IMG/VR virus record: IMGVR_UViG_3300031785_000034
Coordinates: 1-30,694 of that record
Length of the DNA stretch: 30,694 bases
Reading direction: 5' to 3' (one strand)
Source: a virus
The number at the start of each line of letters is the position of its first letter. Position 1 is the stretch's first letter. The notes under the pieces are model-generated. The model made no database searches. It worked only from the letters and a program-made list of their open reading frames with translations, and was not told the DNA's origin. Position numbers and translations under genes: made by a program. This document shows positions 15,516 through 27,069 of this stretch, one piece after another.

Positions 15516-18500
15516 ATGCCTCTTAATAAACTGGAGAATTTTATAAAGAATACTGAAGGTCGTATTCTTTATGTGAATCCAAATGATATAGATTCCACTG
15601 ATGCGATTACGAATCAGGGTAATTCATTAGCACAACCATTCAAAACAATTCAAAGGGCTTTACTTGAGTCTGCTAGATTTTCATATGTATTGGGAAAAAA
15701 TAATGATTTAATAGAAAGAACAACAATATTAATATATCCAGGCGAGCATGAAATTGATAATAGACCAGGATTTGGTATAAAGGTTAATCCATCTAATGCA
15801 AACAATGCTTTAGCAGTTTCACCATCTGGTGCAGAGTCCGATGCTGCAACGACTCTAACACTAAATCTCACTTCTAATTTTGATATAGATCAAGAAGATA
15901 ATATACTTTACAAATTTAATAGTATCAACGGAGGTGTAATCGTTCCTCGTGGTACATCTATCGTTGGATTAGACTTAAGAAAAACAAAGATAAAACCAAA
16001 ATATGTTCCAAACCCAACTGATTTAACAGCACCTTCATCTGCTATATTCAGAGTAACTGGTACTTGTTATTTTTGGCAGTTTTCTATTTTTGATGCAAAT
16101 GAAAATAAATTAGTATATACTGATCCAGTCGATTTCTCTGCAAATAATCAATCAATCCCAAGTTTTTCTCACCACAAACTAACTTGTTTTGAATACGCAG
16201 ATGGTGTTAATACAGTTGATAGATTTAATCTAACAGATTTAGAAATTTACTATAGTAAGTTGTCTAACGCATTTAATATCGCTTCAACTAGAGATATTGA
16301 AGAAAAGTTCCCTTCAAATCCAGAGGGTTTTGCACCTCAAAGACCTGAGTTTGAAATTGTTGGTGCTTTTGCATCAGATCCAATAGTAATTTCAAATATT
16401 TTTTCTGGAAGTGGAAATACAGCAGGTAATGTCGTAACCGTTACAACAGAAACAGCTCATGGTTTTAGTAGTGGAACACCAATTAAAATAAATGGTGTAT
16501 CAGAACCACCATATAACATATCAACAAAAGTACAAAGTATCCTATCTGAAACAGAATTTACTTATTTGTTACCATCAGTTCCACAGGGACTACGTGCTAC
16601 TCCCCAAAAAACAACAAATCAAACCATTACAATTGAAACTGATACAGTAACAGGTGCCTCTCCATATATTTTCAACGTATCACTTCGTTCTGTATTTGGT
16701 ATGAATGGTGTGTTAGCTGACGGTTCAAAAGCAACAGGATTTAAAAGTATAGTTGTTGCACAGTTCACTGGTATTTCACTTCAAAAAGACGACAGAGCGT
16801 TTGTTAAATATAACTCATCTTCAAGAAAATTTGAAAGTATAACCATTAATCTAGCAAAAGGTGCTGCTTTACCTAAAGAATCATCTTCACTAGATCCTAA
16901 CAAAGTATATCATTTAGATTCCAATGCAGTTTATAGAACTGGGTGGAAGACTGCACATATCGCAATGAAAAACGATGCGATTATGCAGATTGTATCAGTG
17001 TTTGCGATTGGATTTAATCGTCATTTCTCTGCTGAATCTGGTAGTGACGCATCAGTTACAAACTCTAACTCAAACTTTGGACAGATAGCACTTACATCTG
17101 ATGGATTTAAAAATGTTGCGTTTAGTAAGGATGATACAGCATTTATCAGTAACATAATTACACCTAAAGCAATCACAGGTGAACCTGTCAATGTTGATTG
17201 GCAAGCATTTGATGTTGGTCTTACCACATCAGTCGGTATTTCAAGTCATCTATATCTTTTTGGATTCGATGATGTTGATGATAAACCACCTGTTGTAATT
17301 CAAGGTTATCGTGTTGGTGCGAAAGAAACAGACGTAATATCGCTGAATACTGGTGCAATCAAAACTGCATCAATCGTTATGACTGACAGTATCGTGAGTA
17401 CAGGTTCGTCAGTCGTTACAGGAACTAGTGTAAGTAAAAAAGTATTTAGAGTTGAGTCTGGGCCATCTGAGGTTCAAGATGACGCAGCGGCATCAAATAT
17501 TTTCACTATCGGAACTCATACAATACAAACAGGTGAAAAAGTTAGAATTCTCAGTGATGATGGTGATTTACCCGAAAATATAGAACCTAATACAGTATAT
17601 TTTGCCATAAGAGTCTCTGGAACAGAGATAAAATTAGCATCATCAATAACAAACGCACAAAATGATGTTCCAATTACAGTATTTAAAGGAACTAAACTAT
17701 TCATAGAAAGTCGAGTATCAGATAAATCATCAGGTGATATCGGTTCACCAATCCAATTTGATACAATCAATAAGAATTGGTTTTTACATACACACACCAC
17801 AAATGATATTTTTACAGAATTTTCTACTCAAGGTGTAAATGGTTTAACTTCAAAGAGTAATGTATCATTCATATCAAGAACTGTTGATCCTCGTTCACTT
17901 GATGAAAGATTATATACAGTTCGTGTTGTAGTTCCAAAAGAAGCTGCTAATGCTAAAGACCCTAATGATGGATTTGTAATACAGGAATCAAGCTCAACAG
18001 GTGTTCGTGCAAATACAGATTTTTCTGATAGAACGATTACAGCATCCGATGTTTTCTTTAACAGAAATCCAAGATTCATAAGCACTTGCTCTACATCTTC
18101 AAACACAGTTACAGTTAGAACCGAATTACCTCATAATTTAAATGTAAATGATAAGATTAATATTTTAAATGTTAAAAGTTCTGCTAACACAACAGGTGTT
18201 GGTAATTCCGCATTTAATGGAACATTCAATGTCACTGCAATTACAAATGATAAAGAGTTCCAACACTCTATAACAGACACCGCTGGTAAAACTCATACGA
18301 CAGGTGATTTTACAAGTGACACGACAACGAGAACAACAGATTTACCAAGATTCCAAAGAAATGATTTGTTATCTAATTTCTACATATATCGAAGTGAGGT
18401 AATTAGTGAGTATATAAAGGATGTTCAAGATGGTATCTATCACTTATATGTCTTGAAAGCAGACAATACTGTTGTTGAAGAATTTACTGATCAAAAATAT

Positions 18501-20888
18501 AGTCAAAATGTTACAGATTTATATCCACAACAAGATAAAGATAATGAAAATGATAATCCACCATCCGCAGTTTCATTCGCAAAAAGAAATCCAATCGGTG
18601 ATGTCGTAACTAATAGTCTAAAAAATAGTATCACCAGAGAGGCAAGTGACAAATTACTACAAGATTTTGGAACAGCACTAAAAATTACCGACTTTGATTC
18701 CACAACTGGTGTCACAACTATCACATTTGACAGAGAGCATGGATTAAGTGGTATTGTAACTTATTCTGACTTTACAGGAGGAACTGGATACACTAATGGA
18801 ACTTATGAGAATGTTAAATTATTTAACGAGGGAACTACCACTTGGGATGGTGCGACAGCAAAAGTCGTTGTTTCTGGTGGTTCAATTACAAATTTTGATG
18901 TAATTGATGGTGGTTCAGGTTATGGTGCTGAAAAATTAGAATTTGATCCAACATTTATAGGTTCACCATCCATTGGTGCAGCTGCTACATTTACATCAGT
19001 TGGTCTATCACAGAATATTGGTGATGTAATCCAAGTTACGGGTGTAGGCACAATTACAGATGGATTTTATAGAATTGCATCTGTTCCATCTACAAAAACA
19101 ATTTCAGTTGCTACAACAACTGGAGATCCCTCATTCTTAGCAGGTCAGTTTGCACTTAATCTTGGTCCTGCTGTCGCAATATCGTCTGATGATTTTGAAT
19201 CTGTAAGTGGTGTATCTACATTCACTTGTAGTTCAGCACACGGATTAGTGATTGGAAGTCCGTTTAGAATTGTTGATAGTTCAAATAATAAACTTGGTGA
19301 TTTTACAGTTAAAGAAAGAGTAGGGGTAAACACATTTTCTGCTAAAACAGATGCAAACTTAAATGGTGCATTTGTTTTAAGAACAGGTATGAGTGCAGGA
19401 GATGCAACCTCTGATGAAGAAAACGAAAATCTTGGCACAAGAGGTTTATCATTCTATAATAGTGAAACTTTAACTCTACAAGCAAACTTAACAAGTGGAA
19501 GTGCTGTTCAAGTGGTTGTTCCAAATGCTGGAATTGGAACTGCTATTAGATTCCCTCTAGGTTCTTATATTGAAATAGATGGTGAAATAATGCGAGTTAC
19601 CAGTTCTGAAATGTCTGGTACATTATTAAATGAAATTAATGTAGTCCGTGGTGCTTTAGGTAGTAGAAAAGCAGATCATGAGGCAGGTTCATTAATTAGA
19701 AAAATTAAACCAATACCAATTGAATTTAGACGACCATCAATTATTCGTGCTTCTGGACACACATTTGAATACATCGGTTATGGTCCTGGTAACTACTCAA
19801 CTGGTTTACCACAGGTACAGACTAAAACATTATCTGAAAGAGAAGAGTTCTTAGTTCAATCACAAGAAAGGTCATGTGGACAGGTTGTTTACACAGGTAT
19901 GAACAACGAAGGTGACTTCTTCATTGGTAATAAGAGAGTTAGTTCCGCAACTGGTCAAGAGAAAACATTTGATGCTCCAGTTCCAACTGTAACAGGTGAA
20001 GACCCATCAAGATTGAGTGTTGTATTTGATGAAGTCGTTATCAAAGAAAGACTTAAGGTAGAAGGTGGAACATCAAGAACTATTTTATCTCAGTTTGATG
20101 GTCCTGTCGCATTTAGTCAAGATGTTAGATTTGATGCGATTACATCTTTCTCAAAGACCATTAATCTTACTCAAGGAACTCAAGCAACATCTACATCTAC
20201 AGGTGATTTGGTTATCGCAGGTGGTGTTGGTATCGCAAAGAGTGTTTATATTGGTGGAGACTTAACAGTTACTGGTAAATTTAATGGTGGTGCTGTTGAG
20301 TTTGGTAACATTAAGATTGCACAAACAAACGCCAATACGATTGACACAGTTGCTGGTGATTTAACTTTAGGTGCAGCAGGTGGGGATCTTAATGTCAATG
20401 CTGATCTCATAGTAAATGCAAATGCTGAAATTGATGGTAATGTGACACTTGGTAATGCAACAAGTGATGCTACCACAGTATCTGGAACTCTTGCAGTCAA
20501 CTCAACCACAAACTCAACTAGTAAAACAACTGGTGCACTAACTGTTAGTGGTGGTGTTGGAATCAATAATGATCTTCATGTTGGTGGAGACATCACTGCG
20601 TTCTCATCATCAGACCAAAATTTAAAAACTAATGTCGTTGGTATTACATCAGCATTACATAAAGTTGGATTAATTACTGGTTATACCTATACTTGGAATG
20701 AAAAAACACATTTTGAAGGAGATGATACTGGTGTGATTGCACAAGAAGTTGAGGCACTTGGATTACCAGGAATCTCAACAACCAGATTTGATGGAACAAA
20801 AGCAGTTCGTTATGAAAAATTAGTTCCTGTATTAATACAGGCAATTAAAGAACTAGAGGCAAGAGTTAAAACTCTTGAGTCTTCATAA
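15516..20888 (+). CDS. giant tail fibre/spike with C-terminal S74 self-cleaving chaperone domain
   Basis: A 1790-residue virion protein, the largest in the window. The N-terminus (GRILYVNPNDIDSTDAITNQG, AQPFKTIQRALLESARFSY, then TILIYPGEHEIDNRPG) has the entry strands of a right-handed pectate-lyase-type beta-helix. Long beta-rich repeats follow, including 'TAHGFSSGTPIKINGV', 'LPHNLNVNDKINILNV' and 'EHGLSGIVTYSD' units and a GGTGYTNGTYENVKLF unit. The shaft before the end has VAGGVGIAKSVYIGGDLTV-like steps. The last ~94 residues are an intramolecular chaperone (peptidase S74): SSSDQNLKTNV at 1697-1707 with the Ser-Asp pair, TGVIAQEVEALGLP, RYEKLVPVLIQAIKEL. This domain trimerises the fibre and cuts itself off. 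A role in host adsorption is expected. Confidence 0.8.
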   Translation: MPLNKLENFIKNTEGRILYVNPNDIDSTDAITNQGNSLAQPFKTIQRALLESARFSYVLGKNNDLIERTTILIYPGEHEIDNRPGFGIKVNPSNANNALAVSPSGAESDAATTLTLNLTSNFDIDQEDNILYKFNSINGGVIVPRGTSIVGLDLRKTKIKPKYVPNPTDLTAPSSAIFRVTGTCYFWQFSIFDANENKLVYTDPVDFSANNQSIPSFSHHKLTCFEYADGVNTVDRFNLTDLEIYYSKLSNAFNIASTRDIEEKFPSNPEGFAPQRPEFEIVGAFASDPIVISNIFSGSGNTAGNVVTVTTETAHGFSSGTPIKINGVSEPPYNISTKVQSILSETEFTYLLPSVPQGLRATPQKTTNQTITIETDTVTGASPYIFNVSLRSVFGMNGVLADGSKATGFKSIVVAQFTGISLQKDDRAFVKYNSSSRKFESITINLAKGAALPKESSSLDPNKVYHLDSNAVYRTGWKTAHIAMKNDAIMQIVSVFAIGFNRHFSAESGSDASVTNSNSNFGQIALTSDGFKNVAFSKDDTAFISNIITPKAITGEPVNVDWQAFDVGLTTSVGISSHLYLFGFDDVDDKPPVVIQGYRVGAKETDVISLNTGAIKTASIVMTDSIVSTGSSVVTGTSVSKKVFRVESGPSEVQDDAAASNIFTIGTHTIQTGEKVRILSDDGDLPENIEPNTVYFAIRVSGTEIKLASSITNAQNDVPITVFKGTKLFIESRVSDKSSGDIGSPIQFDTINKNWFLHTHTTNDIFTEFSTQGVNGLTSKSNVSFISRTVDPRSLDERLYTVRVVVPKEAANAKDPNDGFVIQESSSTGVRANTDFSDRTITASDVFFNRNPRFISTCSTSSNTVTVRTELPHNLNVNDKINILNVKSSANTTGVGNSAFNGTFNVTAITNDKEFQHSITDTAGKTHTTGDFTSDTTTRTTDLPRFQRNDLLSNFYIYRSEVISEYIKDVQDGIYHLYVLKADNTVVEEFTDQKYSQNVTDLYPQQDKDNENDNPPSAVSFAKRNPIGDVVTNSLKNSITREASDKLLQDFGTALKITDFDSTTGVTTITFDREHGLSGIVTYSDFTGGTGYTNGTYENVKLFNEGTTTWDGATAKVVVSGGSITNFDVIDGGSGYGAEKLEFDPTFIGSPSIGAAATFTSVGLSQNIGDVIQVTGVGTITDGFYRIASVPSTKTISVATTTGDPSFLAGQFALNLGPAVAISSDDFESVSGVSTFTCSSAHGLVIGSPFRIVDSSNNKLGDFTVKERVGVNTFSAKTDANLNGAFVLRTGMSAGDATSDEENENLGTRGLSFYNSETLTLQANLTSGSAVQVVVPNAGIGTAIRFPLGSYIEIDGEIMRVTSSEMSGTLLNEINVVRGALGSRKADHEAGSLIRKIKPIPIEFRRPSIIRASGHTFEYIGYGPGNYSTGLPQVQTKTLSEREEFLVQSQERSCGQVVYTGMNNEGDFFIGNKRVSSATGQEKTFDAPVPTVTGEDPSRLSVVFDEVVIKERLKVEGGTSRTILSQFDGPVAFSQDVRFDAITSFSKTINLTQGTQATSTSTGDLVIAGGVGIAKSVYIGGDLTVTGKFNGGAVEFGNIKIAQTNANTIDTVAGDLTLGAAGGDLNVNADLIVNANAEIDGNVTLGNATSDATTVSGTLAVNSTTNSTSKTTGALTVSGGVGINNDLHVGGDITAFSSSDQNLKTNVVGITSALHKVGLITGYTYTWNEKTHFEGDDTGVIAQEVEALGLPGISTTRFDGTKAVRYEKLVPVLIQAIKELEARVKTLESS

Positions 20889-20908: not shown

Positions 20909-22807
20909 ATGGCGAATATCAAAAAATCATTTAGTTTCCGTAATGGAGTACAAGTTGATGAAGATAATTTTATAGTAAATGCTAACGGTCTGGTTGGTAT
21001 TGGAACCTCTGTGCCTTCAGATATTCTTGATGTTCGTGGTACTGCAAAAGTTGTTGGATTAGTTACAGCAAGAGATTTATTTATATCTGGTGTTTCTACA
21101 ATAACAGAAATTCAAGTTGGAACCGCAATCACTATTTCAAGTGGTGTTATAACCGCAACATCTTTTAGAGGTGATGGTTCAACTTTATCCAACCTACCAA
21201 CATCACAATGGATTGATGTTAATCAACCAGGTTTAGGTTTTACATCAATATACGCAGCGGGCAATGTTGGTATCGCTACCACAGATCCTATACAAAGTTT
21301 CCAAGTTGGTGGTTCACCTGATGTGGCAGGTAAATCAGGTGTTGGAATAAACTCAATTGGAAATATAAAAGCAACTGGAATCATAACAGCCACGAGTTTT
21401 GTTGGTCCAGTTTCGGGTGATGTATCTGGAAATATTACTGGTATAGTTACAGGTAGTCTGACTGGAAACGTAACGGGAAATGTGGTCGGTAATATTGATG
21501 GAGATGTAAATTCTACGGGAATATCAACCTTTGCAACTTTATCAGTCACTGGTTTAGTAAATGTCGGAACTGCTGCAACATTTAATGCTGCTGGATTAGA
21601 TGTAACAGGTGTAACATCATCCACGAGTTTTGTTGGTGCTTTAACTGGGGATGTTACAGGTAATGTTACAGGTAATCTGACTGGGAATGTCGTAGGAGAT
21701 ATTAATTCTGGTGTCACTACCGCAACGACAGAGTTAAATGTTGGTGTGGGTGGAACTTCATTAACATCATTAAACACAGGTAAACTAGGAATTGGAACTG
21801 CAATTCCATCCAAAGATGTTACGATAAAGAAAGAGGCAGACACTTCAGTCGAGATAGTATCTGAAAGTGGTGTTTCAAATATAAGTATTGGTCTTACAGG
21901 TGAAACTAAGAATAAAGGTATTATAAGATTTAACAATGACGCCAATACTTTTGATATTGTTAACAATGATACAGGTGATATTAATTTTATACTAGATGCA
22001 TCAAGTAATAGTGGCACAGGTGATATAAGATTTTTGAAGACAACTTCCGAAAAAATGAGGTTAACTAATGATGGAAAATTGGGTATTGCTGTTACAAATC
22101 CATCACATCAACTACATGTGGTCGGTACATCCACTGTCACTGGAAATACATTTATTGGTGGTAATTTATCAATTGGTGGTACATTCACTGGAAGATTAGC
22201 ACTCGGACAAACACTTGAAGCAAATATATTTACAACCTCTGGGATATCAACATTCGGTCAACTTAATGTTTCAGGTCCTCTTGGGTTTGGTTCTGCCACT
22301 CCAGCGGTTGATGTGGATTTTCAACAGGCAACAGCAGTCTTTGGTTCAGTTGGTGTAGGAACAACTAATCCTGTAGGTAAATTAAAAATTGTTGGTGACG
22401 CATTTTTCAGTTCAATCGGTGTTAATACATCCACAATACAAACCGACCCCAACTATAGTGTTGGGGGGTTACAAATAGCAGGTGATCAAATACAAATGAT
22501 CGATAGTCAGATAAGATTTGATTTTGCGAGAACATCACAAATTGGAGTTGGTACTTTTGGAGATACTTTGAGTGGAGTGGTTGATTTAAGTAGAGCAGGT
22601 AATAGTTTCTCACCTTGGGTTTTCATCCCACAGATGTCAACTACCATAAGAAATACTAAAACAACAGCAACAGGTCAAAACTCAACTGGTATTGGGACAG
22701 GAGCAATAATTTACAACACAACCACAGAAAGAATTGAAATATACTTGCCTGATGGAGATTCATCTGCTAATGTAACTAATTGGGTTGGTATAGCAACAGT
22801 TAATTAA
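20909..22807 (+). CDS. repeat-rich tail fibre / virion structural protein
   Basis: A 632-residue protein of a type common in cyanophage tail modules. The N-terminus SFSFRNGVQVDEDNFIVNA and VGIGTSVPSDILDVRGTAK is a fibre attachment-like beta domain, followed by STITEIQVGT and a GFTSIYAAGNVGIATTDP unit. Residues about 165-265 contain two rounds of (T/S)GN(V/I/L)-type steps, which should form a thin trimeric beta-helical stalk. Further VGIGT...P repeats follow, and the end (IEIYLPDGDSSANVTNWVGIATVN) is compact. There is no S74 or collar domain. It lies 3 bases before the halogenase and is in the same apparent transcript. Confidence 0.75.
   Translation: MANIKKSFSFRNGVQVDEDNFIVNANGLVGIGTSVPSDILDVRGTAKVVGLVTARDLFISGVSTITEIQVGTAITISSGVITATSFRGDGSTLSNLPTSQWIDVNQPGLGFTSIYAAGNVGIATTDPIQSFQVGGSPDVAGKSGVGINSIGNIKATGIITATSFVGPVSGDVSGNITGIVTGSLTGNVTGNVVGNIDGDVNSTGISTFATLSVTGLVNVGTAATFNAAGLDVTGVTSSTSFVGALTGDVTGNVTGNLTGNVVGDINSGVTTATTELNVGVGGTSLTSLNTGKLGIGTAIPSKDVTIKKEADTSVEIVSESGVSNISIGLTGETKNKGIIRFNNDANTFDIVNNDTGDINFILDASSNSGTGDIRFLKTTSEKMRLTNDGKLGIAVTNPSHQLHVVGTSTVTGNTFIGGNLSIGGTFTGRLALGQTLEANIFTTSGISTFGQLNVSGPLGFGSATPAVDVDFQQATAVFGSVGVGTTNPVGKLKIVGDAFFSSIGVNTSTIQTDPNYSVGGLQIAGDQIQMIDSQIRFDFARTSQIGVGTFGDTLSGVVDLSRAGNSFSPWVFIPQMSTTIRNTKTTATGQNSTGIGTGAIIYNTTTERIEIYLPDGDSSANVTNWVGIATVN
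21390..21710 (+). repeat. internal duplication in fibre gene
   Basis: The 17-mer CCACGAGTTTTGTTGGT occurs at 21390 and 21621, each followed by a run of codons for GDV-(T/S)GN-type steps (to about 21510 and 21710). The copies have diverged downstream of the 17-mer. This explains a long antisense open frame here that is not a gene. Confidence 0.7.
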
Positions 22808-22810
22808 TTT

Positions 22811-24274
22811 ATGAAGAAAATTGTTATTGTAGGAGCGGGAACAGCTGGATTATCAGCTGCCGCTATGATGAAAAGTTATTGGGGAGATAAGGTTGATATA
22901 ACACTAATCTATGATAAAAGTCGTGGTAATATCTCTGTAGGAGAAAGCACAACACCTATTTTTAGATTATTATTACATCATCTTGGTGTTTCTACGAAAC
23001 AACTGATAAAAGATATTGGTGGTAAGGCAACTATTAAACTTGGTATTAATTTTAAAAATTGGATACCAAATACAGAATATTTTCATGGTTTTGCAGAGGT
23101 AGAACAAGAAATAGGAACTAACACAAGTGCGATATATTCTATACCAGCAGGGGAATTTAATGGTGGTATGAACTATAGTAAAGCAGTTACTACAATACCT
23201 AACAAACCATTTGAAGAGTATGGATATGCGATGCACATTGATACTAAAGTTTTTTGTGAATACATTACAGAGAGATTAAAGAATCGTATTAAGTTTGTAG
23301 ATGGTGTAGTAAATCGAGTACGAGTTAATCCTGAGTGTAATAAAATTGAACATATAGAGTGTACGAGTGGTATCTATGAAGCAGATTTATTTGTAGATGC
23401 ATCTGGTTTTAATGCTGTATTGTTTAAACATCTGAATCCTTCATGGCATGATACATCAAATATTCTACCTATAGATCGTGCGATACCACAACAAGTTCCT
23501 TATGATTTTAAAGAAACACCCTCATTTACAACTTGTGAAGCAACTAAAAATGGATGGATATGGCAGATTCCGATTGGAGATAGATTTGGTACAGGATATT
23601 TGTACTCGTCTAAATTTACAACTGATGAAGAAGCACAAGATCAGTATGATAAATGGCTACGAGAAAAGTTTAATGTAGAATTAGAAACTGACAGAGTGAT
23701 AAGATATAAACCAGGATATTACGAGGATTATTGGATAGGTAATTGTCTCGCAATCGGATTGTCAAGTGGATTTATTGAACCTCTTGAAGCAACTGGTATT
23801 CAAATAATTATACAACAGATACAAGAGTTCATGATTATCAATTCGACTCTTAAAAATTTAGAATATAATCGTAGAATAGTCAACAAAGGTAATCGAACTC
23901 TTTATCAAGATATTATAGATTTTGTCGCACTACATTACTGCACAAATCGAACTGATTCTGCATTTTGGAATTACATGACTTATAACAAAATTGATTGGGT
24001 ACGAGATTTTGAAGAGAAATGTAAAGTTGAATTTTTAGATGGTCGAACTTGCTACAAGGAAAAAACATTCTGGGGACTCGATAGTTTCATACAAGTATGT
24101 TATGGTCTTAAAATGTTTGATCGAGAAAGTATAAAGAGTTTTTTACTCTCGAAAATTGATGGTATGGACATATTCAATCAAGCACAGGGTGAACATGAAT
24201 TTTTAGAAAATGAAAAGAAAAAAATAAAACAAATATCTCATAAGAAAGTTTTAGACCTTATTATGAATAAATAA
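22811..24274 (+). CDS. flavin-dependent halogenase (tryptophan-halogenase family, VirX1-like)
   Basis: This enzyme family uses FADH2, O2 and halide to make an enzyme-bound haloamine that halogenates aromatic substrates. The 487-residue product has GAGTAG (residues 8-13) of the FAD Rossmann fold, VGEST (43-47), and the family lysine in ATIKLGINFKNW (K76, equivalent to PrnA Lys79 by my alignment). It also has the signature GWIWQIP (248-254, the WxWxIP motif that separates halogenases from monooxygenases) and FIEPLEATG (321-329), whose E326 corresponds to PrnA Glu346. The serine after that glutamate in PrnA is Ala327 here. A cyanophage halogenase, VirX1 of Syn10, is known to prefer iodide. Substrate here is unknown. 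It lies 3 bases after a fibre gene and just before a Trp/Cys-rich adhesin. The partner flavin reductase is not in the window. Confidence 0.9.
   Translation: MKKIVIVGAGTAGLSAAAMMKSYWGDKVDITLIYDKSRGNISVGESTTPIFRLLLHHLGVSTKQLIKDIGGKATIKLGINFKNWIPNTEYFHGFAEVEQEIGTNTSAIYSIPAGEFNGGMNYSKAVTTIPNKPFEEYGYAMHIDTKVFCEYITERLKNRIKFVDGVVNRVRVNPECNKIEHIECTSGIYEADLFVDASGFNAVLFKHLNPSWHDTSNILPIDRAIPQQVPYDFKETPSFTTCEATKNGWIWQIPIGDRFGTGYLYSSKFTTDEEAQDQYDKWLREKFNVELETDRVIRYKPGYYEDYWIGNCLAIGLSSGFIEPLEATGIQIIIQQIQEFMIINSTLKNLEYNRRIVNKGNRTLYQDIIDFVALHYCTNRTDSAFWNYMTYNKIDWVRDFEEKCKVEFLDGRTCYKEKTFWGLDSFIQVCYGLKMFDRESIKSFLLSKIDGMDIFNQAQGEHEFLENEKKKIKQISHKKVLDLIMNK
24266..24273 (+). promoter_or_regulatory. possible late promoter motif before the adhesin genes
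   Basis: AATAAATA at the end of the halogenase gene, 21 bases before ATG 24287. It is weak because the surroundings are A-rich. Confidence 0.3.
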
Positions 24275-24286
24275 AAATAAAAAGAC

Positions 24287-24472
24287 ATGGGTTATTACAT
24301 AAAAAAGACAGGTCTATCTGGAAAGACAGTTTACTGGACAGGTGGAGTTCATTGGTCTGATGATAGTTCAAAGAAAAAGACTTATGTAAATAAGTCAACA
24401 GCAGACGCAAAACTTGTTAACACCGATGGTAAGAATGGTGGATGGACAGGTGCTACAGTTGTAAGTGAATAA
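24287..24472 (+). CDS. 61-residue Trp/Lys-rich small protein
   Basis: A small protein, MGYYIKKTGLSGKTVYWTGG then VHWSDDSSKKKTYVNKSTAD and GKNGGWTGATVVSE, with three tryptophans (W17, W23, W53), many Lys and no Cys. It looks like a compact beta domain. The stop and the next ATG overlap by one base (TAATG), so it is coupled to the glycine-rich adhesin. It is wedged between halogenase and adhesin, and may be an adhesin chaperone, a small tip protein, or a halogenase substrate. None of these is shown by the sequence. Confidence 0.65.
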   Translation: MGYYIKKTGLSGKTVYWTGGVHWSDDSSKKKTYVNKSTADAKLVNTDGKNGGWTGATVVSE

Positions 24473-25605
24473 TGGCAATACAAATCTCTGCAACTCAATA
24501 TTTCGGTACTGGTGCTATTAGTTTTAGTGCGATGAGAAATACTTTTCGGTTGAATAATCCAACTGGAACTATATCTGCATCTGAACTTTTAAGAAATACT
24601 GACATAACAAATACCGATCCAATATTGCCTGATGCAACAGAGAACAGTGATGTTGCCACTACTACAGATTGGAAAACATCACAGATACGAGATAGTATTA
24701 AATTTTATAATGTCACTCAACCAAGTGGAGATACAAATGTAAATCTTGATATTGATGGTCTTTCATGGAATAATAATTTAAATAAGAATATTGTCAAAAA
24801 GATGTTCATTCAAGGCACTTGTGGTTCTAATACCACAGGTACAGCAGCTGCCTTGATGGATAGCACAGCACATAATTTAACAATAGATGTGAGTGGAGAT
24901 ATATTTGGTTGTGGTGCATTAGCAACTACTGATGGAGATAACCCTGATGGATTAGATGGTGGGGATGCACTAGATGTTATCACATCTGGTAATAATGTAA
25001 GTGTAAATGTTCAATCTACTGCGAGAATTTATGGAGGTGGTGGTGGAGGAGAGCATGGTAATGATGGTGCGACAGGACAAGATGGAACTTGTTTTAATTA
25101 TATCTTTGGAGAGGTAGCAAGTGGTTGTGGATTTTGTGGAGATTGTAGTAATTTAGGAGCAGGATACGAGAGATATGGAGGTTGTAATACAGGTGGTGGA
25201 TGTAACTGTTCTGGATGGTGGTTTTGGTATGGTTGTCGTCAAAGAGTGATAAGTACAGCATTATGTCGTAAACAAGACCCAGTTACAGTCACAGGTGGTA
25301 CAGGAGGTGCAGGTGGCGATGGTGGTCGTGGTCGTGGATTCAATTATCAATCAGGAACTTTATCAGGTGGCACAGGGTTAGGTGGTTCCGCATTTGTAGG
25401 ATGTGGTGGGTTTACTGGCACAATCACAGTAGGTGGCACAGGTGGTAATGGAGAAAATGGTGGAGCTGGTGGTGATTGGGGTGAAGATGGTGCAAATACT
25501 GTTGATTCAGGAGATGGAGGAACAGCGGGTAAGGCAATAGATAGATCGACAAATGTTTCAGTTGGTGGTATAATAAATTCAAATACAGTCAAAGGAAATT
25601 TTTAA
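24472..25605 (+). CDS. glycine-rich receptor-binding adhesin-like protein with Cys/Trp-rich insert
   Basis: A 377-residue protein. Residues 1-115 form an attachment-like domain (GTGAISFSAMRNTFRLNN resembles the start of many cyanophage fibre tips). Residues 130-185 are beta. Residues 186-200 and 274-355 are glycine-rich blocks (YGGGGGGEHGNDGATGQDG; GGTGGAGGDGGRGRG; GGTGGNGENGGAGGDWGEDG) like the polyglycine motifs of T-even gp38 adhesins, which pack as polyglycine-II helices and determine host range. Between them, residues 207-265 hold nine Cys with CGFCGDC and the aromatic cluster WWFWYGC. The Cys spacing suggests a disulfide or metal knot. It is coupled to the 61-residue gene and followed 6 bases later by the CxxC protein gene. 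Confidence 0.65.
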   Translation: MAIQISATQYFGTGAISFSAMRNTFRLNNPTGTISASELLRNTDITNTDPILPDATENSDVATTTDWKTSQIRDSIKFYNVTQPSGDTNVNLDIDGLSWNNNLNKNIVKKMFIQGTCGSNTTGTAAALMDSTAHNLTIDVSGDIFGCGALATTDGDNPDGLDGGDALDVITSGNNVSVNVQSTARIYGGGGGGEHGNDGATGQDGTCFNYIFGEVASGCGFCGDCSNLGAGYERYGGCNTGGGCNCSGWWFWYGCRQRVISTALCRKQDPVTVTGGTGGAGGDGGRGRGFNYQSGTLSGGTGLGGSAFVGCGGFTGTITVGGTGGNGENGGAGGDWGEDGANTVDSGDGGTAGKAIDRSTNVSVGGIINSNTVKGNF

Positions 25606-25611
25606 TTTTAC

Positions 25612-25881
25612 ATGAAAAAATATCCATCCCTTTTACAACAGGGCAAGAATCTTGCTTTGACTATTGGTAGAATATATGATACAATACGAGATAAGAACTC
25701 GCAGTTAATTACTCCGAGAAAAATATATTGGCGACGCATCGAGATTTGTAAGAGTTGTTCGAGTTGTGACCAGAAACTTAAAAGATGTATGGAGTGTGGG
25801 TGTTATATCCCTGCCAAAGCAAAAATCGTTGTTGAAGCTTGCCCACTAGGAAAATGGGAAGAAGATGAACTTACTGATTAA
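25612..25881 (+). CDS. small Cys-rich (zinc-ribbon-like) protein, DUF6171-like
   Basis: An 89-residue protein with a basic N-terminal helix and a C-terminal cysteine module: EICKSCSSCDQKLKRCMECGCYIPAKAKIVVEACPLGKW. The order CxxCxxC, CxxCxC and C-P-L-G-K-W is the pattern I know from DUF6171-type small phage proteins, probably a zinc or metal knuckle. The function of that family is unknown. It overlaps the next gene by 17 bases and follows the Cys-rich adhesin directly, so it could assist folding or metal loading, but this is only positional inference. Confidence 0.65.
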   Translation: MKKYPSLLQQGKNLALTIGRIYDTIRDKNSQLITPRKIYWRRIEICKSCSSCDQKLKRCMECGCYIPAKAKIVVEACPLGKWEEDELTD

Positions 25882-26401
25882 AGACAATTTTTTTAGCAAT
25901 CCTGACGTATTAAGAAGATTTGCGTTGGATTGTGATTATATTGATAGTGAAGAAGTCAAGGTTGATGTAGGTTGGAGAGGTCATAGAACAGATGAGTTTG
26001 AAGTTATAGGTAATCCACATTTAATTACAGCAAGTGAGAAGATAAGAAAAGCAGTATGTAAACATTTCAAATTAGAAGGATATTCAATATCATCACACTT
26101 TCATCTATCACACAAAGGAACTAAAAAGACTCTACCAGACTTCGAGAATAAGAAATATCATTTTGATCAATGTGATTACGCAGGGGTTGTATATTTAAAA
26201 CCGAGTCCACCTAGAAACACAGGAACTTCATTATTAAATGGTGCGAGAAATAGTATTCGTAGTGTTAAGAACAGATACAATAGACTAATCGCTTACCCTG
26301 CACATCATATTCATGCACCAACAGATTTGTTTGGAGAAGACTTTTATACAGGTAGAATGACACTCACATTCTTTATGCACAAAGATTGGACATGGGATTG
26401 A
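25865..26401 (+). CDS. 2OG-Fe(II) oxygenase-like protein (DUF6445-like)
   Basis: A 178-residue protein with features of the double-stranded beta-helix dioxygenases. It opens LLIKDNFFSNPDVLRRFAL, as in phage 'DNFF.nPd.vR..AL' proteins. The iron site candidates are H99 and D101 in KYHFDQCDYAGVVYLKP, with a distal His among AYPAHHIHAP (147-150). GRMTLTFFMH supplies the candidate 2-oxoglutarate-binding R164. Substrates in this family are mostly unknown and may be proteins. It ends the fibre/halogenase/adhesin run and is followed by a terminator. An alternative is a non-enzymatic relative, but the HxD...H...R set appears complete. Confidence 0.7.
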   Translation: MNLLIKDNFFSNPDVLRRFALDCDYIDSEEVKVDVGWRGHRTDEFEVIGNPHLITASEKIRKAVCKHFKLEGYSISSHFHLSHKGTKKTLPDFENKKYHFDQCDYAGVVYLKPSPPRNTGTSLLNGARNSIRSVKNRYNRLIAYPAHHIHAPTDLFGEDFYTGRMTLTFFMHKDWTWD

Positions 26402-26517: not shown

Positions 26518-27069
26518 ATGCCATCTACCGCACTTAAAGCCTTAACTGCAACAACAGGTAATAGAACTGATTGTTGGAATACACCACCTGAGTTTGTCGG
26601 CGACGTTCTTAAATATTTTGGAACACTAGATTTAGATCCCTGTTGTAATGACGAGGATAATCCAAATGTACCTGCGAGAAAAGTATATACGGAAAAAACA
26701 AATGGTTTAGCACACGAATGGATTGCTGATAGTGTGTTTATGAATCATCCTTATAGTAATAGTAAAGAGTGGGTTCCGTATGCTGTTTCACAGTATGAGT
26801 TAGGACACGCAAAAGAAATGATATTATTAATTAAATTAGATGTCTCAACAAAATGGTGGAGGTCAGTATCACAATATTCATGGATTGCAATTAATAAAAG
26901 ACTTAAGTTTGGGGATGGAAAAGGTGCAGCTCCATTTCAATCAGCAATAATTTATTTGGGTAAGAACTTAGATAGATTCAATGATGTGTTTGGTAAGTAT
27001 GGAACTTTATATGTGCCACATAAGAAAGTGACACAGGAAGTAGAGACACCTCTCATAAAACTATTATAA
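26518..27069 (+). CDS. phage DNA N6-adenine methyltransferase (Dam-like)
   Basis: A 183-residue protein of the phage Dam family, which methylates adenine with S-adenosylmethionine. Visible motifs are DCWNTPPEFVGDVLKYFG (residues 18-35, the family opening WxTP), LDLDPCCN (37-44), KVYTEKTNGLAHEWIADSVF, and the catalytic (N/D)PPY position, which here reads NHPYSN (76-81). KGAAPFQSAIIYLG is the late strand. The second residue of NPPY is therefore His, an unusual change in the target-base pocket. No restriction partner is nearby. Likely use is protecting phage DNA from host restriction or regulating packaging. It follows a terminator and new promoter, so it is expressed apart from the tail genes. 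Confidence 0.82.
   Translation: MPSTALKALTATTGNRTDCWNTPPEFVGDVLKYFGTLDLDPCCNDEDNPNVPARKVYTEKTNGLAHEWIADSVFMNHPYSNSKEWVPYAVSQYELGHAKEMILLIKLDVSTKWWRSVSQYSWIAINKRLKFGDGKGAAPFQSAIIYLGKNLDRFNDVFGKYGTLYVPHKKVTQEVETPLIKLL

Follow-up and report, generated by a model that had tools for sequence, protein, structure and literature searches.

Introduction

PrnA, RebH and PyrH are bacterial halogenases of natural-product clusters that act on free tryptophan. Peptidyl-tryptophan halogenases are also known (PMC12615548), namely MibH, SrpI and MppI of RiPP pathways, which act on tryptophan inside a gene-encoded polypeptide and whose substrates are small natural-product peptides. In phages, a flavin-dependent halogenase with both the catalytic lysine and glutamate, VirX1, is encoded by cyanophage Syn10 (6qgm). 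Earlier papers, including PMC2984593 and PMC10452541, have assigned phage halogenase genes a metabolic role or left their use unexplained. In the open-access literature we found no paper that connects phage tail fibres or adhesins with halogenases, a prior mention being possible. Among phage adhesins, PP01 gp38 has a receptor-binding surface built from loops between glycine motifs (PMC12892980).

Here we analyse a 30,694-bp virus record (the window) with T4-like tail and baseplate genes. The original prediction had placed a flavin-dependent halogenase among its tail-fibre genes and read this setting as pointing to a structural-module role.

The halogenase gene and its product

The gene (22811-24274, forward strand) begins with ATG, contains no internal stops and encodes 487 aa that match PF04820 (Trp_halogenase, E 1.2e-84, residues 3-439) and phrog_2928 (tryptophan halogenase, E 1.6e-93). 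Near the N-terminus the FAD-binding GxGxxG motif reads GAGTAG (residues 8-13), the WxWxIP motif reads WIWQIP (residues 249-254), and K76 and E326 align with the catalytic lysine and glutamate of PrnA (K79 and E346). These are the four elements on which the original prediction was built; all are present, and the PF04820 match and the fold back its assignment. The AF2 model (pLDDT 95.4) lies closest to SttH (5hy5, Z 44.0) among solved structures, followed by PyrH and PrnA (Z 40-44 for the three), with MibH at Z 38.0 and VirX1 at Z 36.1. Moreover, an alignment of 63 relatives shows no variation at G8, G10, G13, K76, W249 or E326, and comparison with the four nearest relatives gives dN/dS values of 0.03-0.08, which places the gene under purifying selection. 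The family E-values, the invariant motifs and the dN/dS values rule out a chance ORF or a decayed gene. By sequence and predicted fold, the product is an intact, conserved flavin-dependent halogenase. That it is a flavoprotein of halogenase fold which no longer halogenates, and for example oxidises or only binds flavin, is extremely unlikely; the literature consulted gives no activity record for the window clade, which leaves such a protein some room, but the invariant lysine, glutamate, FAD glycines and W249 and the purifying selection speak against it.

The window halogenase shares its fold, FAD motif, WxWxIP motif and catalytic residues with PrnA, RebH and PyrH, but differs in two respects. 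Firstly, it reads EATG where they read ESTG; the alanine directly after the catalytic glutamate (Ala327) had been singled out against the serine of PrnA, correctly, although EATG proves to be common among viral relatives and is thus unremarkable. Secondly, the lid residues Y454, Y455 and E461 of RebH, which hold the amino and carboxyl groups of tryptophan (PMC5945002), have no evident counterpart, the roughly aligned sites being E417, K418 and G422. Yet the lid loop aligns at the same length as that of PyrH, and therefore the active site gives no clear verdict on the substrate. Nothing in the window was seen to encode a flavin reductase.

Relationship to other viral halogenases

A search of genome contigs with alignment A1 recovered only bacterial relatives, at 29-34% identity. 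In a FastTree phylogeny of 130 representatives at 60%, ten of them from bacterial genomes, the window halogenase falls in a viral clade (support 99) separate from the Syn10 and P-RSM6 copies. Its identity to VirX1 is 29%, which together with the separate clade rules out orthology and makes the comparison with VirX1 in the original prediction a loose one. Viral halogenases are diverse and for the most part lack a fibre link, the window clade being one lineage and VirX1 another. Whether viral copies are always next to fibre or adhesin genes had also been raised, and they are not. A fibre link for all viral halogenases is ruled out by copies in other genomic settings: the cyanophage T4-GC212 'prnA' copies of P-SSM2, S-PM2, S-RIM44 and S-MbCM6 lie among metabolic genes, the HTVC008M halogenase is located between terminase genes and that of Campylobacter phage IBB_35 adjoins a DNA ligase.

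The VirX1 gene was unexpectedly found behind tail-fibre genes. Annotated as 'hypothetical' (CPUG_00131, 9508-11100 of the Syn10 locus L006), it is the second of two tandem halogenases and follows a tail-fibre-assembly gene (phrog_863) and phrog_1787, with 2OG-Fe(II) oxygenases behind it. We found no published description of this gene setting. VirX1 and the window halogenase are thus both phage flavin-dependent halogenases with the catalytic pair, encoded behind tail-fibre genes, but VirX1 has no adjoining gp38-type adhesin and is one of a tandem pair.

Further arrangements were seen in viral contigs. Three to five clustered halogenase-like ORFs occur with several 2OG-Fe(II) oxygenases in L094 (4361-8896) and L136 (7105-13409), and three to five close ones are also found with 2OG-Fe(II) oxygenases in L098, L102, L111 and L113. 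In Actinomycetia phage DSL-LC01 (L021, 6088-12630) the halogenase comes after collagen-like genes and before a glycosyltransferase, possibly another fibre-decoration setting. Lastly, in L084 (8643-11548) and L239 (11473-14169) a distant gp38-like adhesin is followed downstream by two halogenase-like ORFs, one of which, in either locus, is missing at least one of the two catalytic residues in the alignment.

Organisation of the cassette

All genes of the window cassette lie on the forward strand. A large tail fibre of 1790 aa with a Peptidase_S74 chaperone domain (15516-20888; phrog_529 tail fiber, E 0; PF13884, 4.6e-10) is followed by a fibre-like tail protein of 632 aa, the upstream partner of the halogenase (FIB, 20909-22807; phrog_3269 tail protein, 5.5e-66). 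Because this fibre gene ends at 22807, the halogenase follows it after 3 bp, exactly the spacing originally given. Downstream come a conserved, Trp-rich protein of 61 aa (24287-24472; phrog_24339), a gp38-type polyglycine adhesin of 377 aa (24472-25605), a small Cys-rich DUF6171 protein conserved behind the adhesin (25612-25881; PF19668, 8.2e-08) and a DUF6445 protein (25865-26401; PF20043, 1.7e-05, near the cut-off) that is an accessory cassette gene in some relatives. A Dam-type DNA methylase (PF05869, 3.3e-20) is encoded at 26518-27069. The halogenase had been described as standing before the adhesin; the adhesin is indeed downstream, but in the window the 61-aa ORF intervenes. In most relatives the adhesin directly follows the halogenase, and only in the closest relatives does the 61-aa protein separate the two; elsewhere it is found behind DUF6171. 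Its sequence is nearly identical across records.

To place this arrangement among relatives, IMG/VR was scanned with the halogenase clade and genes were then called around each match. The recurring order is large fibre, fibre-like protein, halogenase, adhesin, DUF6171 and helicase. Of 40 distinct clade members, 39 had downstream genes in view, and in 34 of these 39 a gp38-type adhesin lies at most two genes downstream (35/39 if L011, with its adhesin three genes downstream, is counted). A fibre gene is found at most two genes upstream in 34/37. Within the halogenase clade, these counts support the original reading that the setting points to the structural (tail-tip) module. The exceptions L026, L046, L079 and L084 are clade members not in front of a gp38-type adhesin.

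The cassette order persists down to 46-50% identity and includes a cultured phage, the freshwater cyanophage S-SRM01, whose host is Synechococcus. Its halogenase (QPX48017), the nearest cultured relative at 52% identity, occupies the same cassette position but reads ESTG, and its adhesin (QPX48018) carries the tip motif CNWWGNCWW, both unlike the window. The word 'halogenase' is absent from the S-SRM01 paper.

The adhesin and its tip

The AF2 model of the adhesin (pLDDT 89.2) matches S16 gp38 (6f45) with Z 16.5 over 230 residues and PP01 gp38 (9v85) with Z 15.3, identifying a polyglycine-sandwich receptor-binding domain. A LIM-domain likeness, from a profile search against solved structures, was rejected as consisting of chance matches only, the fold search having given gp38. 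The window adhesin has the fold of these two proteins and the polyglycine blocks that flank a hypervariable region; it differs in possessing an extra Cys-rich, Trp-bearing tip domain. We know of no halogenase that acts on S16 or PP01 gp38.

The Cys-rich tip sits between two glycine blocks and spans about 65-90 residues. In the window this hypervariable tip comprises residues 194-276 (25051-25299), and alignment of its loops picks out a candidate target loop, CNCSGWWFWYGC (residues 244-255, 25201-25236), with W249, W250 and W252. Model confidence is lowest in the stretch of the distal tip that holds this loop (pLDDT 66-70, adhesin residues 241-260). Another gp38-like adhesin (L197, 8001-9452) has an intein/Hint-looking stretch in its tip, with a Pfam Intein_splicing match (E 0.034) below the cut-off.

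Tip tryptophan with and without the halogenase

In order not to sample halogenase loci only, searches were also started from the adhesin and from the fibre. Many records contain the same cassette without the halogenase, the fibre being followed directly by the adhesin. When 21 halogenase-less records were searched in full, 20 held no halogenase match at all, records being fragments in which absence is not proof. The exception is L330, where a distant halogenase of 25% identity, its catalytic lysine and glutamate kept, lies two genes downstream of the adhesin; this locus had first been scored as halogenase-less and yet as having tip tryptophan.

Dereplication at 85% left 28 adhesins with and 21 without the halogenase. 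At least one tip tryptophan is present in 28/28 of the former (mean 3.8) and 9/21 of the latter (mean 0.86), leaving 12/21 with none (Fisher 3e-6, Mann-Whitney 1.8e-6, p-values that ignore relatedness). Outside the tip, tryptophan counts are alike (3.21 versus 3.14). Moreover, when all 20 residues were compared in the tip, again ignoring relatedness, tryptophan was the most shifted (p 4e-6), the next best residue reaching 6.5e-3. Restricting the halogenase-less rows to the 12 that are fibre-adjacent leaves the contrast in place (p 1.1e-3). Tyrosine was rejected as a halogenation target, being lower rather than higher in tips with the halogenase. In tips with a single tryptophan, the residue is always in one loop (SCGWGGTC), and the corresponding site in the halogenase-less L254 and L198 reads CCGLFNC. 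Tip tryptophan is also carried by some halogenase-less adhesins, such as L168, L170, L179 and L333, and therefore does not need the halogenase.

Co-divergence of halogenase, tip and fibre

Halogenase state changes just 5-6 times on adhesin trees. An independent-pairs sign test had too few pairs to reach 0.05, with 0 pairs in the opposite direction. A Pagel-type test of correlated evolution favoured the dependent over the independent model (LR 15.5-21.1, p 0.0003-0.004; asymptotic p-values from one tree and four codings). Nearest neighbours agree in halogenase label for 46/49 adhesins by tip, 40/49 by N-terminus and 37/49 by C-terminus.

Matrix regression over 30 halogenase-linked loci relates halogenase distance to tip distance (beta 0.63, p 0.0005), with no significant effect of adhesin N-terminal or C-terminal distances. 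With the fibre added (23 loci), both tip (0.45) and fibre (0.51) count, the fibre co-diverging with the halogenase as strongly as the tip does. The halogenase thus co-diverges with the tip and the fibre rather than with the adhesin scaffold. Mosaic loci were also found. The adhesin N-terminus of L043 is 76% like that of the halogenase-less L256, whereas its tip (61%) and halogenase (60%) resemble the L039 group and are of the S-SRM01 type; L254 shows the reverse combination. A specific and unexpected genetic link between the halogenase clade and the receptor-binding tip is well supported by these several partly independent tests.

The fibre signal (beta 0.51) is what one would expect if the substrate were another virion or nearby protein, either the upstream fibre-like protein or the 61-aa protein, which is Trp-rich and met only with the cassette. 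We regard this as quite improbable. The fibre was rejected as the tryptophan target, since whole-fibre tryptophan content is equal with and without the halogenase (0.52% versus 0.53%) and its last 150 residues differ weakly (1.35 versus 1.04, p 0.017), while most cassettes lack the 61-aa protein.

Coupling might also arise without any tip chemistry, with tip and halogenase both being host-group adaptations that travel together by recombination and the tryptophan itself binding the receptor. The tips are hypervariable receptor-binding regions, independent changes are few and some tips have tryptophan without a halogenase, all of which would fit; such coupling does not, however, by itself predict that tryptophan alone is enriched or that a separate halogenase lineage lies beside the L330 adhesin, and we judge it very unlikely.

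Given the literature, the enzyme could be an auxiliary metabolic one that halogenates a small aromatic (free tryptophan, indole or a host compound) from an incidental cargo site in the tail region. Members of the family act on free tryptophan and small aromatics, VirX1 takes many small aromatics in vitro (PMC8407142), the lid loop has the length of that in a free-tryptophan halogenase, PyrH, and reviews propose metabolic or antibiotic-protection roles (PMC2984593, PMC10452541). This seems unlikely for the window clade, where the halogenase has a near-fixed position between fibre and adhesin, tryptophan enrichment is limited to the adhesin tip, and the halogenase co-diverges with the tip but not, significantly, with the intervening adhesin N-terminus.

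A proposed role for the halogenase

We consider it somewhat probable that the enzyme halogenates a tryptophan in the adhesin tip, the peptide-modifying MibH, SrpI and MppI offering parallels, although the substrate proposed here is a folded virion protein rather than a small natural-product peptide. An active halogenase would then be a member of a tail-fibre assembly cassette comprising the large fibre, the fibre-like protein, the halogenase, the adhesin and DUF6171. Acting after adhesin synthesis, it would draw on host-supplied reduced FAD together with O2 and halide. K76 would hold the hypohalous species so formed and E326 would help to direct the halogen to the indole ring of a tip tryptophan, in the window within the W249/W250/W252 loop. 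The halogenated tip may alter receptor contacts, or the exposed tip loop may be hardened. From the comparisons above we infer catalysis of halogenation and the adhesin as substrate, and likewise the target tryptophan, the halide and the effect on adsorption.

A broader hypothesis, which we hold tentatively and at somewhat less than even chances, is that some tailed phages halogenate receptor-binding-tip tryptophan of their own adhesins as a post-translational diversification of host recognition, distinct halogenase lineages (the window clade, that of L330 and perhaps the VirX1 type) having entered tail-tip modules on more than one occasion. Within this hypothesis the VirX1 type, with 2OG oxygenases, would perhaps act on collagen-like fibres.

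The purpose of phage halogenases has been a question since prnA was noticed in cyanophages, and for one clade our proposal offers a specific, testable answer that names both the neighbouring protein and the loop and comes with natural controls lacking the enzyme. If true, it would mean a peptidyl halogenase that acts on a folded protein, a lead for protein-labelling enzymes, and a virion protein that is halogenated and plays a part at the tip by which the phage recognises its host.
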